This document shows, in pieces, positions 1 to 6,821 of a stretch of DNA of 64,000 nucleotides. Both the position numbers and the translations under genes were made by a program. The notes under the pieces are model-generated. The model had not been told where the DNA came from and made no database searches. It worked only from the letters and a program-made list of their open reading frames with translations. Origin of the DNA: Ceratodon purpureus. Lineage: Eukaryota; Streptophyta; Bryopsida; Pseudoditrichales; Ditrichaceae. Location of the stretch: assembly GCA_014871385.1 (NCBI GenBank), contig CM026431.1, forward strand, positions 14,293,094-14,357,093, written 5' to 3'. How positions within the stretch are numbered: the stretch's first letter is position 1; each line of letters begins with the position of its first letter.

Positions 1-26
1 ATTGAAGAACCCTTACACTGCATAAA

Positions 27-112
27 ATATAGAATTTGAATAAATCATATGCGTCCATTAGTCCTATACATATATAACTAATGCATGAATATGATTAATT
101 CAAATTCTATAT
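27..112. repeat. Near-perfect inverted repeat (hairpin)
   Basis: Arms at 27-61 and 78-112 are reverse complements at 31 of 35 positions by eye, with a 16-base loop. The sequence is AT-rich and lies about 360 bp upstream of the transposase start codon. It has the size of a plant miRNA precursor or a very small foldback element. No family is recognised. Confidence 0.7.
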
Positions 113-468
113 ATGTATTGTTTTAAATGCAGAAGGAAAAGACGGCTCTTTTTAATCAAATCACACCCCATAAAAAATAGAATCTGCTCCACGATTTAAA
201 CACTTAAAGCAATATTCTGAAAATCTAACCACATATTTATGGGCCTGCAAAAAGCACATTCCAATCAGTTAGCGCCGTCTCTCTTTAATCATACATTCGT
301 TACGTAGCAGAATGAATCATTACCTAGTCGCCCACATGGACATTCCAATTTGAATAAAATGATCAACAGCGATGCATCATTCCTCTCACTTTGCTCTCGC
401 GATACAGCTTGGCTAGTACACTCACTCTTCTCCGTTCTTCCTCTAGTATCTTTGAGTTGCCGGCGAAT
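113..468 (+). promoter_or_regulatory. Upstream region of the transposase gene
   Basis: No gene is seen here. A CCAAT motif lies at 345-349, about 120 bp before the chosen ATG. The frame stays open upstream of that ATG to 391 but contains no other ATG. I looked for a terminal inverted repeat matching the far side of the convergent pair (4855-5060) and saw none. Confidence 0.3.
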
Positions 469-3400
469 ATGGGGATGGTCTGTCTGTACGCCCAAGGCAT
501 GGGCATCCCTCTTAGGTTTCGCGTAGATGACGATGGTCTAGCTACGGTGTCCTCTCTTCGCCTCAGTCTCAGATTTCATTTTCGAGAGGATTCCATCAGT
601 ATAGAGGAGGAGATGTTTGATGACGTTACTGCCGAGGTTACCCACACCCTCGGGCAGCCTTCGGTGAGAGATGAGAACAACATGTTGCAGTGGAGACTCC
701 TCCCTGGATCCTATAGAGTCTATGGTCTTACTGATTCTCTTATGGCTGCATCCACTGAGATCCTCACCCCCCGTCGCTCTTCTACTTGCACAATTCAGAC
801 TCCCTTACCTCGTGATGTCAAAGTCAAAGTCGAGCCTGGTACCGAGACTTCAGATGTAGAGAAACCTCCTCCGACCGTCATATCTCTCTCTTCTGATGAC
901 GAAGTCAGTCCCGTGAAGTTGGTGCCTAAGGTCCACGCAGATGCTCCTCCTTCCAATGTGTCTCCTCCATTGTCCCAGGTCACAGTTAGCATTGTTCCGC
1001 TCCTTAAAGAGATTGCTAAGACGCGTGGGTCCAAAAACATTTTGAAGAAGATAGACTATTCCACTATTAGACACGAGAGAGTAGAGTACTTGCCTGCGAA
1101 GTTTGATGGTCCGGTTCTTTTTGAGTTGCCCCCAGCTGCTGCAGGATCCTCTAAGCTCGCCGCCAAGTCAATGCAGGGAATGGACAAACGATACGACGGA
1201 CACTTGTGGACCAAGACCATCACAACAAACATCAAAAACGACTTCGGACTCTCTTTTCGGAGTTCCACCTGCGTCGGATGGCTGCGCTGCATCAACAAGG
1301 AGTGTAACTTCCTGAAGCGTGTTCCCAAGATCTTCGAGGTCAACGAGACTGAGTTCGAAGGCTGTACCCTGCAAGCTTTTGTCATGGACCAGCCTCCTCC
1401 ATCTGACTCCACGCTAGTGTGCAAGGTATGTAAAGAACCTCCATCATGTGTAGCTACATGCGAGGCTAAGATTTATTACGTTGTGGGCAAACCGAATCAG
1501 ACTAGAGCGTGTATTCACATAGGAACACATGATCATCCAGTGAAAGTTGGAGACTACAGAGACTCTAAAGCAGAGATTAGTAGCTTAATAGAAGAGCAGG
1601 TAGAGATGAACAACAAAGCAACGAAGAGCGCCGTTGTCTTGGAGGCGAGCAAACTCCTCATCGGGAGCTACCTTCTACAGCATGAGGATGCACCACCGAG
1701 GAAATTGACGATGGAGGAGCTGGTTCCTGTTCTGGATCGATGCAAAGAGATGGCGTCGCCCAACATCCGCAACAAAGTCGCCACCTTCAAAAAATTTGTA
1801 AGGTACGGAATCATGGACGGTATCACCAAGCTCCGTGGTAACAGTCTCTGGGCGTATGTTCAGGAAAATAGGTTTCCTGGTCAGGGATCGATGCGTGACA
1901 AAGTCTTTGTCTTCAAGATGTCGGAGGTCGGGCCGGGCAGTGGTGTCGACTTGGTCAGCCGTATGCAAGCTGGTGGCGATTTGGAGAACGCATGGATCAT
2001 GTTCGACCATGTCAAACGCGTCAAAGATTGGTCGACGATGGCGTGCCATGTGTACGACGCCACGTACTGCCGCGTCATGACAATCGCCACTTGCGACATG
2101 CAGTCCGAGGACACGGACGCCCAGCTCGTCTTCTGGAAAAACCTGAACCTGGTCATGGAGATCAATGGCGTTGCAGCGCCGAACTTCAAGGGGTTCATGG
2201 CGGATAACGCACAGGCCAATTGGAATGCAGTGCGGATCCTTTACGGCAATGGCAATAAAGAGGACCCAATGGAGGACCGGGAGAGGTCGTGCTTGTTCCA
2301 CTGGACTCAGAACATGGTGGCGTATACGCAGAAGCACTTCCCCGAAGAACTCTGGGAACAGCACAAGAAGATGTGCACTCAGTACAAGAATGCGACCAGC
2401 ATGGCAGAGGCGGAAACTCTGTACCACGCGTTGCGAGCATGGTGGGCATCCACCGGGGTCGTCGGCGAGAGCGGACTCATCAAACTCGATCAGTGGCTGT
2501 CATTCTGGCACCACCGCTTCCGCCAGTGGGGGGGATTCATGACCGAGGTATGATTTCTGCACTCTGTTTTGATGTTTATGATACTGGTTTCCTAGCTCTA
2601 ACCTACAAAACTCTAATTAGTGAATCTAACGGCACCTACTCTCTAAATTGCAGAAATTCACGGAAGAAGAACTCACAAAGATGCCGACCTGTAACCTGGC
2701 CGAAACAATTCATAACAAGTGGCTCCAAGCTTCAGGAAACAACGGGAACGACCTCTACGTTGCTACCGTGGACGATTTCGTTCGGGCATTTCTACAGGTT
2801 GTCAACTACTACCAGTTCCTCAAAGGTGACGTCGGCGGAACAGGACCATCTAAGAAGGAACTCAGGCTTCGGATGGCGGAACGCAACGCGAAGAAATGGG
2901 GAAATCCTACACTGCTCGACAAGCCCATGCTCGATATGCCAGGCGCGGATGAGTTCTGCACCCGTCAGCCTATCATGCCAGGAGCGGAAGTCTTCGGTTC
3001 ACAGAAGCGAAAAGCCGACGTCCTTATCGAAGCTGACGAAGAGTCTCATCGCCCGGATAAGACCAACTTCTCACGCCCAAGAGGCCCAAGACGTGCCGTC
3101 AGGGCTCGCCCTATGCAGATGCCCGTCATTGTGGAAGACGACTCCGAACACGACACCGAGGTACAATGTACCCAACCTCCTGCCCAGGAAGTTGATTCCC
3201 CTTTACCTTCACCTGTGAACAAGGGCGGCATTCGCCATGTCAACGCGGTTGAAGAAACCAAGGTCGACGTGAAGGAGTGGCACATCTCGAGACTTCACAA
3301 ACTTTCTGCGAAGTGCTGCTGGGCCCAAAGAGCTGAAACGAAGAAGAAGTGCACTGAGAGAATCGTCAGGGGGCCCCATTGCACAGCTGCACCGACCTAC

Positions 3401-4147
3401 ACTGGGCTCTGGACTAACTATCGCAGGAACCTAGTGGAGAAGACTGAGTTCTTCTTCTGCTCCGACGATATTGAGCGTTGCGTGAAAGGCTCTAAGCGCA
3501 AGTGGGTAGCACACTACTCAAAGGACCAGGAATTCCCCTCCATTCCAGAGGTGTGGCCAGTGAAACTAGGTACTAACCTAAAATTTACTGAGATTCTTGC
3601 CCTCGAAGCAGCGGGCTTTCAACTTCCGCAGAAGAAACCGGTCTCCCCAAGACGCCTCTTCTCCTCTGCCCCGCCCCCTGCAAATCTCAGCTCAGTGCCA
3701 GTCCCTGCAGACGCTGACCGCTACCCAGGGAAGAGAGACGGCAAGATGGTGAAGCGCACTGCCACTCGTCCCAATCAAGCGCAGCGACTCTCCATGGGCT
3801 CCTCCGAATCTCTTAAAGCGCGCCTCCGTTCCGTCACCATGATACCTGAGCCGGGCCACGGTTGCATCATTGGGCTGGATTCGGGCGTCGCTCCACACAT
3901 CACACGGTACCAGATTACCATCAGTTCTTACCCTGGTTGCACTTGCCCAGCATTCAAGAAGACAATGACTACGTTCCGTGGGAAGACTCCGTTCACGTAT
4001 TGTAAGCACCTATACTACATATTCTTGAAGGTCTGCAACCGTGATCCCGAAGCGGAGCTTTTCATCCATGCGCCTACCTTCAGCTTCAACGAGGTCAAGC
4101 TACTCTTAGAGGGTGGAATCTTGCGTCACCCCTTGGCGAAGAAGTAG
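469..4147 (+). CDS. Mutator-like (MULE) transposase with GCM/WRKY-type zinc finger and SWIM finger
   Basis: Two exons, 469-2547 and 2654-4147, joined by a 106-bp phase-0 GT-AG intron, give 1190 aa with no stop or frameshift. The first ATG of the open frame was taken as start. Domains in order: a low-complexity N-terminus with a SUMO-interaction-like motif (VISL then SSDDE, about 137-145) and a VKVE sumoylation-like site; a Cys/His finger at about 268-356 ending GTHDHP, as in the GCM/WRKY/FLYWCH group; a MULE catalytic core with DATY (D530), MADNAQ (D579) and CLFH (C608, H611); and a C-terminal SWIM finger CxCx18CxH encoded at 3938-4009. The third catalytic acid could not be assigned. MULE transposases cut and paste DNA in the nucleus. 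No terminal repeats were found, so a domesticated gene is possible. Family assignment is firm; autonomous activity is not shown. Confidence 0.85.
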
Positions 4148-4401
4148 GTAGCCCTCCTACTTTAGAACTTCCATTTCCACAATGGCCATTTGTCACGTAG
4201 TGAATGATTTTAGTAATATACCATATACTAAGTCAGCTATTGAGAAGCTGTATTGACTTTTTCATTATATTAAAGGCTTTGGCGTTCACATTGATTGCAT
4301 TCTATTTCAATACATTGTATCTTGAAGAAGTGCACTATATACCTCGTATCCCCTGACATGTACCCTTTATTAAGGCAAACATATACTTGTTATTAGATGT
4401 C

Positions 4402-4854
4402 CTAATCTTCGAACCTAACACGTTTAGGGTTGCCCACTACACTATCAGCAGGACTGCCAGCCGCTGACTGTACTACAGGAGAAACTACATTCGCATTCAC
4501 TTTCGTTCCCACACTTGGCAAATGTCCTTGGTATGATCGTTTCAGCAATGGCCCACCTCCCCGCCTCCGATTAACTGATTCCCTGGAATAGGTTCCCCTT
4601 GGGATCTTTCCAACCTTCGAGTATGCATGTGGTTGCAAAGGCACATCTGCATCCTTCTCTAGCACTATGATTTCATCCGAATTTTCTGAACGTGGAGGGT
4701 CAGCTCTTACATCCGGTTGTACCGCAACATCCGATGTCGACGGACGCCCTTGGCTGTTGGCCATCACCTCTTCTTCGTCCTCCACCTCAACATATGGTTG
4801 AAATGGACAAACATCGTCAGCAAGTGAAACAACAATATCTCTGACGTCTTCCAT
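4402..4854 (-). CDS. Orphan 150-aa protein, convergent partner of the transposase
   Basis: The 150-codon frame starts at ATG 4854 and ends 254 bp beyond the transposase stop, tail to tail. I recognise no domain. The protein is acidic at the N-terminus and basic at the C-terminus (NRRRGG, PKRVRFED), and looks mostly disordered. Two SUMO-interaction-like motifs are visible: VVSL followed by ADD (residues 8-14) and IIVL (62-65) flanked by acidic residues. Upstream, at about 4930-4945 on the reverse strand, an AT-rich TATA-like stretch could serve a promoter. The convergent layout resembles mudrA/mudrB of MuDR, so it may be the second gene of the same element. No sequence similarity to MURB is claimed. 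It could also be a chance frame or an exon of a longer gene. Confidence 0.5.
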   Translation of the reverse strand: MEDVRDIVVSLADDVCPFQPYVEVEDEEEVMANSQGRPSTSDVAVQPDVRADPPRSENSDEIIVLEKDADVPLQPHAYSKVGKIPRGTYSRESVNRRRGGGPLLKRSYQGHLPSVGTKVNANVVSPVVQSAAGSPADSVVGNPKRVRFED

Positions 4855-5980
4855 AGCTGCTGTCCCGCACTACGGAAAAGAGCTTCACATAACACCAATA
4901 CAAAAGAGGCAGAGACATTCCCTACTCTTATCTTAAATATCCCTGAAGAAGATGCTTGGCGCCCTTGAAAATCGGCTATTCATTCATTTAAAAGTTGTCA
5001 TCCTCCTAAACCGAATGGAAAAAGATGAAGGTTTAGCAGAGGTCATTTAGCATTTGAATTTTTCTTTTAAAATTAAAGAATGAAAAAAAAAAAAAAAAAT
5101 TAAAAAAAAAAAAACATTTATATAAATTGAAATTAAAAAGATTAAAGAAAAGAATAGCAATATTTAAAATGAAGGTTGAAAATAATATGAAGGAGATCAA
5201 CAAATTGAATGTGAAAATAAAATGATTGTGAAAATAAAATGAAGGAGAGAATCAAATGCAAGGAGGCTTTTGACCCCTCTAACAAGATAGATAGAATAAA
5301 GAAAATTTTATAAAAAATACAAAACAAATTTCCAAAAAATTTAAAAAATAAAAAAAAAGGAGAAAGGCATGTAGACTATAGTGGATGAATTCTAGCAATG
5401 TTAAGAAAATGTTATGAAATTAAATGTTACTTGATCACTGTTCACAGGTTCAATACCAAAACATTTTAAGTAGTAATTTGCATATAAATTTAAGGAGATA
5501 AGGGGAATTACTGTATGCCTGAACTAGTTAGAAGGAGCTGGAGCATTGTAATTGGTGCAAGTTAAAAAATTAAGCACCAAGAAAAGAGAATATGAACTAC
5601 AAATTCAATGAAAATATTGTAATTAGTACACGGTTATAGGGTCAATTAAATTACTAAAATTAGTAACTTCCCAAAAATATACTAAGAATATTCGGATCTT
5701 CTAATTTTGTAATTTTGTAATGCTATTTTAAGGTTCTGTCTCCCATTCTGTGCTCTCCGCTCTCCAAATCTGCGCTCACCGCTCTCCGCTCTGCGCTCTC
5801 CGCTCACGTACAAGCTTCCCTCGTAAAAACATCGAGAGATCAACCTTGAAGTCCTAATTCAAAAATTGGATGGAGATAGAAAAGGGTGGGGTCGTGGAGA
5901 GATCCACGGTCTTGGTTTGTACTGCATCATGTCACTTAGCTCAGGGGAATAGGGTGGCTGGTTGGCTGGTTATTTCCTGC
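4855..5980. other. AT-rich spacer with poly-A tracts and a pyrimidine-rich microsatellite
   Basis: No gene is seen. A-rich low complexity dominates 5040-5350, with long A runs at about 5083-5114. A degenerate repeat of GCTCTCCGCT type lies at about 5745-5812. Some of 4855-5000 may be promoter of the reverse-strand frame. Confidence 0.5.
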
Positions 5981-6112: not shown

Positions 6113-6407
6113 TAGTCCTGGAGTGGTTTTATACCACTGTTGGTTAACCGTTTGGCTTTCGACTGACGGAACAGTACTCCTAGGTCTATTCTTTCTCACC
6201 TAGGTTATCTTTTGATAAATAAAAAGATGCCTTTGGCTGCTAGTGTTTGTTTTACTATAAAGATAGCCATTATGATTTTATTGGAGTGTTAAAAGTGGAA
6301 GCAAGCTTCTCAAGGAAGCTACTAGGTTTAGAATAAAGATAACCGGGTAGCTTTGCTTCTCTTAGTTCACTCTGAGTAGTTTGGGTTTGGATTCAGTGTT
6401 TGTGGTG

Positions 6408-6821
6408 ATGGAATCACAAGATCCTGACGATTGGCAGTTGCCCTTATCTCAATTACCGATTGATCCAAGTCAACCATCTTCTTCAAGGCGGCGTTTGCGA
6501 GATGAGGCGGGGCCTTCTGAGCGTTGTGTGCAACCACGAACAGAGCCAGGTATCTCGCAGTTTACACTTCCGGCCTTGCAATTGGATGACAGGGCTTTGG
6601 TCATCGTTTTGGAATCTGAGCCTACGCTTTCCGGGAACTATCAAATGGTGTTTGAGGGGTGCTTTGAGAACAACAATGAAGGTCAAATGGTGAGCCGCAT
6701 TTCTAGTGAAGTTGGCCATCGCTTCTGGCTTCAAGGGCAGCTCAATCTCCTGACCAGGGAACGGAGGGCAAGCTTCATCGCTGCGGTTATTTTGCGTATT
6801 TTGGAGTTTTTGAGTGTTTGA
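6408..6821 (+). CDS. Orphan 137-aa hypothetical protein
   Basis: An uninterrupted frame runs from ATG 6408 to the stop at 6821. The N-terminal half is Ser/Pro/Arg-rich and acidic. The C-terminal half has regular hydrophobic spacing that could fold into strands and a helix ending in ILEFLSV. No domain is recognised. It is followed by long non-coding DNA with internal tandem repeats (7412-7791 and 8001-8126), a layout more like a non-autonomous mobile element than a normal gene. No matching terminal repeats were seen. It may be a chance frame. Confidence 0.3.
   Translation: MESQDPDDWQLPLSQLPIDPSQPSSSRRRLRDEAGPSERCVQPRTEPGISQFTLPALQLDDRALVIVLESEPTLSGNYQMVFEGCFENNNEGQMVSRISSEVGHRFWLQGQLNLLTRERRASFIAAVILRILEFLSV

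Follow-up and report, generated by a model that had tools for sequence, protein, structure and literature searches.

A giant, probably Mutator-like DNA transposon of the moss Ceratodon purpureus with a convergent gene pair and a methyltransferase-like gene

A stretch of 64,000 nucleotides from the moss Ceratodon purpureus (hereafter the window; contig CM026431.1 of assembly GCA_014871385.1, positions 14,293,094 to 14,357,093 of the forward strand) contains a long transposase gene and a second frame of 150 aa arranged tail to tail. This layout raises the question of whether the locus is a compact two-gene Mutator-like element (MULE) resembling maize MuDR, as a sequence-only reading of the window had proposed, or a piece of something larger. 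We searched the window's own genome assembly (362 Mb, 151 contigs) and found that the element is not compact: further genes lie upstream of the window, which very probably holds the right third of a giant DNA transposon of the cut-and-paste type. This element measures 15–17 kb, contains four or more coding blocks and is most likely a MULE. Three whole copies share their ends, 10-bp target duplications, gene order and stop-free frames; purifying selection acts on their genes, and the family includes recent, near-identical copies.

The interval 469–4854 was used as a query and yielded 1806 candidates, of which the best 34 were scored. All of them matched along the whole 4386 bases; identity was 100% for the window's own place and 98% for each of 33 further places. 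A set of 21 copies was assembled from the window copy and 20 of these other 33 matches, taken with their flanks. The right terminus at position 5822 was common to all 21, and the flanking sequence beyond it differed. The inverted counterpart of this end was located upstream of the window at −9639 (position 361 of L029), and the window copy thus spans −9639 to 5822, with positions 1–5822 (plus strand) forming the right part of a 15,462-bp element with terminal inverted repeats. Positions 469 and 4854, which had been taken to bound the element, hold as the ends of its genes and not as its own.

Three copies, that of the window included, were read from end to end, with lengths of 15,462 (window), 16,992 and 14,937 bp. 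Each presented terminal inverted repeats of roughly 50–75 bp and a perfect 10-bp target duplication (GTAAAAACAT, CATGTGTTTG and GCGCCGACAC). In the window, the right terminal inverted repeat, built of GAGCGGAGAGCG-type short repeats, lies at 5745–5822 (minus strand) and was aligned with the left end in the three copies; the right copy of the duplication GTAAAAACAT follows at 5823–5832, and the same 10 bp stand at the left end. Copies carrying both frames between shared terminal repeats had been predicted with 9-bp duplications: the paired inverted ends were recovered in 3/3 whole copies, and the duplications measured 10 bp in every one of them.

The ends are abundant in the genome. The outer 28 bases of the right end had 481 matches with at most three mismatches and those of the left end had 856, whereas the same sequences read backward had none. 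Left-type matches are therefore in excess of right-type matches, and this surplus may include related families. When the first 100 exact places were listed for each end pattern, 29 of the 51 exact right ends on contigs C1–C4 were faced by an exact left end less than 30 kb away, at a spacing of 14.6–27.6 kb, and a left end on the wrong side was found for three of the 51. The copies at two places on contig C6 (L012 and L018) align without a gap over 8391 bases, of which 15 differ, so the family moved recently.

The right arm begins with the transposase. The unbroken 1190-aa protein and its intron were confirmed on the plus strand, with an open exon 1 of 693 aa (469–2547), a single GT...AG intron (2548–2653) and an exon 2 of 497 aa plus stop (2654–4147). 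The translation was searched by eye for transposase motifs: exon 1 contains an N-terminal Cys/His finger, the first two D of a DDE triad and a CxxH motif, and exon 2 contains a candidate third acidic residue (CNLAETIHNKW) and a SWIM-like CxCx(n)CxH finger near the C terminus. Across the 21 copies, nucleotide diversity (pi) was 0.065 in the intron relative to 0.014–0.015 in the exons, and exon 2 showed no internal stop and no indel. The ratio of nonsynonymous to synonymous changes per site (N/S) was 0.13 for exon 1 and 0.17 for exon 2.

Beyond a spacer of 254 nt (4148–4401), the second gene occupies 4402–4854 on the minus strand, convergent with the transposase, and encodes 150 aa from its ATG (155 aa from stop to stop). 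Its protein is without family assignment: a Pfam scan gave no match at E ≤ 1. Two putative signals on the minus strand, AATAAA about 30 nt beyond the stop codon (4366–4371) and a TATA-like TATTTAA about 80 nt ahead of the ATG (4933–4939), are identical in 21/21 copies. As a side observation, the intron at 2548–2653 is far more variable than the spacer at 4148–4401 (pi of 0.065 and 0.013).

The two genes travel together. Among 2939 candidate places for transposase exon 2, we retained the best 86, and all 86 have the second frame beside them in convergent orientation: 67 by listing (260 or 261 nt apart), three inside full-length matches and 16 by direct fetch. For these remaining 16, 320 bases were fetched at the expected position, and all hold the second frame, unbroken over the part read in 13 and broken in three (L036, L037 and L039). 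The sequence-only reading of a MULE-like transposase facing a linked 150-aa frame was therefore upheld for 86/86 listed transposases; transposase copies lacking the second frame, which would have spoken against the pairing, were absent from these best 86 of 2939, three of which carry the broken frame. Starting from the second frame itself, the best 150 of 1331 candidate places included 148 stop-free copies; 67 of the 150 adjoin a listed transposase and 83 do not, the transposases being the best 86 of 2939. In maize, mudrA and mudrB are likewise convergent, and MuDR is about 5 kb long. The moss element resembles MuDR in pairing a transposase with a small convergent second gene, but it is about three times longer, has at least two further coding blocks and makes 10-bp duplications; the likeness drawn here concerns layout.

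The left arm lies outside the window, and its exons were modelled. Its coding blocks are divergent from the transposase and consist, in order, of an exon with the motif MKESGG, a frame holding an array of 171-bp units, an exon with YxPTSP repeats and a ParB-methyltransferase frame. The first and last exons of this frame are provisional, and the blocks may be spliced into one gene or several. This last gene was modelled with nine exons and encodes spliced proteins of 965, 965 and 971 aa, stop-free in the three whole copies, in all of which it lies on the strand opposite the transposase and inside one element with terminal inverted repeats. The exon lengths agree modulo 3 between the three copies while the introns are only 56–76% identical, and the splice sites hold except for the modelled acceptor of the ParB exon, which is AA in the third copy. 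With dN/dS of 0.18–0.23 across a synonymous divergence of 0.25–0.98, the left genes are under purifying selection in all three whole copies.

Behind the ParB-like stretch, this protein contains a DNA-methyltransferase domain. Pfam N6_N4_Mtase exceeded its cut-off in both spliced copies that were scanned (E = 4.2e-7 and 1.4e-7; 30.6 and 32.1 bits against a cut-off of 26.7), phage methyltransferase families of PHROG were matched in 3/3 copies, and CcrM and DpnA were matched more weakly. Aligned by hhalign with phage methyltransferases over the domain, the protein gave E = 3.3e-6, relative to 0.1 for a reversed control. Motif IV of beta-class enzymes has the consensus (D/N/S)(P/I)P(Y/F/W). In 3/3 copies the moss protein presents DIPEN, aligned to the phage DPPYN, and so departs from the motif of an active beta-class adenine or N4-cytosine methyltransferase; this suggests that catalysis may be altered or lost and that the protein may act mainly by binding. 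Toward the N terminus, GNHRLAA falls on the GHxR motif of ParB (GHLRLKA in phage), as a motif match only. A protein of the Wolbachia phage WOVitA1 is encoded in a single frame of 404 aa, with ParB_N (below its cut-off) followed by N6_N4_Mtase and DPPYN. The moss protein is similar to such phage ParB-methyltransferases in its beta-class methyltransferase domain, which can be aligned with theirs from end to end. It differs in being spliced, in exceeding twice the length of the WOVitA1 protein, in having a large middle region and in carrying DIPEN. Confirmed relatives of transposase exon 1 or of the ParB exon were not found among viral contigs.

The ParB exon was listed at no fewer than 150 places in the genome. 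Many of the 150 listed places show one TGA, and in the copy that was checked (A2, C6:33122778) this codon sits in residues ahead of the modelled exon. Among the matches listed, the ParB exon was upstream of and divergent from 33 of the 86 transposases at less than 25 kb; another arrangement was seen in two pairs.

The other left-arm blocks lie between the transposase and the ParB-methyltransferase frame. The MKESGG exon encodes a basic sequence. The tandem array (L029:6121–8059) comprises 11.3 units of 171 bp that are 95% alike and forms an open frame with a 57-aa repeat; the unit was matched at about 90–93% in L012, L018, L027 and L028. The YxPTSP exon (L029:5395–5802, minus strand) encodes YMPTSPVYEPTSPGYMPTSP, which resembles the tail of RNA polymerase II: the Pfam model of the tail repeat scored 20.0 bits, just below its cut-off of 20.3 (E = 0.0008). 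Its dN/dS was 0.10–0.12 across the three copies, and the stop closing its frame is kept in 3/3.

The two arms have different histories. The core (1–5822) is about 97% identical between copies (96.5–97.7% over the matched pieces spanning it), whereas the left genes are 71–95% alike. Similarity to the window extends upstream to at least −1031, where the query stops, in nine of the 20 other copies; it ends at about −720 to −743 in L010, at −579 in L022 and at −2 in eight copies, and in L024 it is interrupted and 82% alike. The closeness of copies also changes from block to block. In the ParB-methyltransferase stretch, the window copy is 87% identical to copy B but 73% to copy A2, whereas in the MKESGG exon it is 95% identical to A2 (525 bases) and 71% to B (456 bases); core identity is 97% in either case. 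These conflicts suggest that left and right arms recombine between lineages, and such recombination would be the simplest explanation of the mosaic.

We assigned the element most likely to the MULEs on the basis of its ends, the length of its duplications and the motifs seen by eye; the profile tests did not confirm this assignment. MULE target duplications are described as 8–11 bp long (PMC6446971), a range that includes the 10 bp found with inverted ends in 3/3 whole copies. It is also conceivable that a DDE transposon of another superfamily resembles MULEs by chance in its 10-bp duplications and its SWIM-like finger, and the lack of profile support would agree with such an origin. A Pfam scan of the transposase returned no family over its cut-off, the sole hit being a DUF6301 match below it (E = 0.082); the gene is missing from the 93 places listed in the genome for the Pfam MULE family PF10551; and hhalign against five MULEs of the same genome gave E = 0.57, relative to 0.52 for the reversed sequence. 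The transposase was thus not placed in the MULE family by sequence profile, although absence at such sensitivity is compatible with membership. The 10-bp duplications, the inverted ends, the Cys/His finger, the order D-D-CxxH-E and the C-terminal SWIM-like finger, all motifs being read by eye, fit MULEs, and we regard another superfamily as quite unlikely. The profile results nevertheless count against the reading of a giant MULE with a ParB-methyltransferase gene, and so do several other observations. Exon 1, which has no indel in the 21 copies, carries internal stops in four of them (L009, L016, L020 and L023), and the fold model of its catalytic part is poor (predicted local distance difference test, pLDDT, of 47.9). 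The ParB-like stretch gave E = 0.081 by hhalign relative to 0.16–0.21 for controls, which is not significant, and the Pfam scan of the spliced left protein in two copies found no ParB_N. Singleton changes of the C-to-T type occur at 0.069 in CG, 0.059 in CHG and 0.043 in CHH contexts, an excess suggesting that host methylation still reaches the copies. The selection signal of the second gene is weak, and the end-to-end readings cover no more than three copies. As a separate observation, the 93 places listed by Pfam belong to MULE families of other kinds, and many of them are on C6.

How much of the element is a genuine functional unit can be weighed in the same way. A compact MuDR-like element of two genes, contained within about 469–4854 or 1–5822, would account for the loss of similarity at −2, shortly before the transposase, in eight of the 20 copies. 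Yet in the one member of these eight whose whole length was read (L030+L011), a diverged version of the left genes follows (71%, 456 bases), and the left end and duplication of this copy stand 17 kb from its right end; −2 was accordingly rejected as the end of that copy. Three paired ends with perfect duplications also contradict a two-gene element, which we find scarcely credible. More weight goes to the idea that the 150-aa frame is open by chance, lies antisense to the 3' untranslated region of the transposase and owes its conservation to hitch-hiking in a young family. In the 21 copies the frame has no internal stop and no indel, but the spacer is equally free of gap columns and no less conserved (pi of 0.0128 against 0.0194 for the frame), so that conservation alone is no proof of a gene, and the protein belongs to no known family. 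The N/S of the frame was 0.44 uncorrected and 0.48 when corrected with a mutation spectrum drawn from non-coding sites (one-sided P = 0.013); in a wider sample (codons 52–150 of 34 copies, the three broken ones dropped), it rose to 0.70 and the signal dropped to P = 0.088. On the other hand, among the six frames compared N/S is lowest in the true one, the five wrong frames giving 0.67, 1.19, 1.21, 1.53 and 1.63 on the 21 copies, the best 150 copies include only two with a stop, and the AATAAA and TATA-like signals are invariant. The N/S test lends modest support to the frame as coding; the second frame is probably a fast-evolving gene, and a chance frame seems unlikely while still deserving consideration. 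Finally, the left genes could be host or foreign genes captured as in Pack-MULEs and foreign to the autonomous machinery. Acquisition of host genes is common among MULEs (PMC6446971), and the left arm is the variable part of the element. However, gene content, gene order and reading frames are preserved in 3/3 whole copies over a synonymous divergence of 0.25–0.98 with dN/dS of about 0.2, and the ParB exon is present at 150 or more listed places; we therefore hold capture to be improbable.

The reading of a giant MULE-like element with accessory genes has several partial precedents. Maize MuDR carries two genes, mudrA and mudrB (PMC6446971). The VANDAL/Hiun elements of Arabidopsis carry vanB and vanC beside the transposase (PMC6446971), and VANC counteracts silencing in a sequence-specific manner (PMC6446971, PMC10398659, PMC5735166). 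The moss element is comparable to VANDAL/Hiun as a probable MULE with several accessory genes but differs by its clear inverted ends and its methyltransferase-like protein, the comparison being one of descriptions and not of sequences. Closer in gene content is Sola1-1_Ec32 of Ectocarpus, a 21.5-kb transposon in which a 1104-aa protein with ParB-like and N4C/N6A methyltransferase parts is encoded on the strand opposite the transposase (PMC12477816). ParB-methyltransferase accessory genes have been published for transposons of brown, red and green algae, the red algal carriers being apparently giant EnSpm elements (PMC12477816). Like Sola1-1_Ec32 and its algal kin, the moss element is a giant DNA transposon with a DNA-methyltransferase-like gene opposite the transposase, the ParB-like part of the moss protein being a motif match; unlike these Sola1 and EnSpm elements, it is MULE-like and resides in a moss, and its motif IV is DIPEN in 3/3 copies, again as judged from descriptions rather than sequences. 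The literature searched, chiefly open-access, showed no MULE and no land plant with a ParB-methyltransferase gene, and in PMC7466625, on moss transposons, the words MULE, Mutator, MuDR, methyltransferase and accessory are absent. The element is best described as carrying a kind of accessory gene already known from algal transposons, its MULE-like moss carrier being the new part.

These features suggest how the element might work. On its right arm the transposase would be joined by a small helper gene convergent with it, and the divergent left arm would supply a repeat-rich frame that includes the polymerase-II-tail-like exon, together with a ParB-like/DNA-methyltransferase-like protein. Judging from the ends and duplications, the transposase would bind the inverted ends rich in short repeats, excise the whole unit and reinsert it at cuts staggered by 10 bp. 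The small gene may assist or regulate transposition, a role suggested by the precedent of mudrB and vanB/vanC. The ParB-methyltransferase protein might bind the element's own repeats and either mark the element or shield it from host silencing; binding and marking of the own element have been proposed for the algal ParB-methyltransferases (PMC12477816). The two arms would recombine between lineages. A bolder and rather doubtful extension is that the left arm constitutes a self-contained module for anti-silencing or self-expression, in which a catalytically altered ParB-methyltransferase binds its own repeats and the YMPTSPVYEPTSPGYMPTSP tail mimic recruits host readers of the polymerase tail, while the uniform transposase arm spreads several diverged control arms in the manner of a segmented selfish element.

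If the proposed structure is correct, an algal-type ParB-methyltransferase gene is carried in a moss by a MULE-like element belonging to a young family of many copies. A plant grown in the laboratory would then allow one to test the part that such genes play in a transposon and whether they mark DNA or hide it, and the role of N6-adenine or N4-cytosine marks in the control of land-plant transposons would become testable. Right arms so uniform beside left arms so diverged would further constitute a natural record of recombination in large DNA transposons.

Two neighbouring features were observed outside the element. The left flank of the window copy (L029:3–278) looks by eye like the C terminus of a Ty3/gypsy polymerase (FARRWFGPYVV...YLLRELDG), a possible sign that the element landed in a retrotransposon here. 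About 540 bases beyond the right end of the element, the window contains a stop-to-stop frame of 151 aa with MESQDPDDWQLPL (6366–6821, plus strand).

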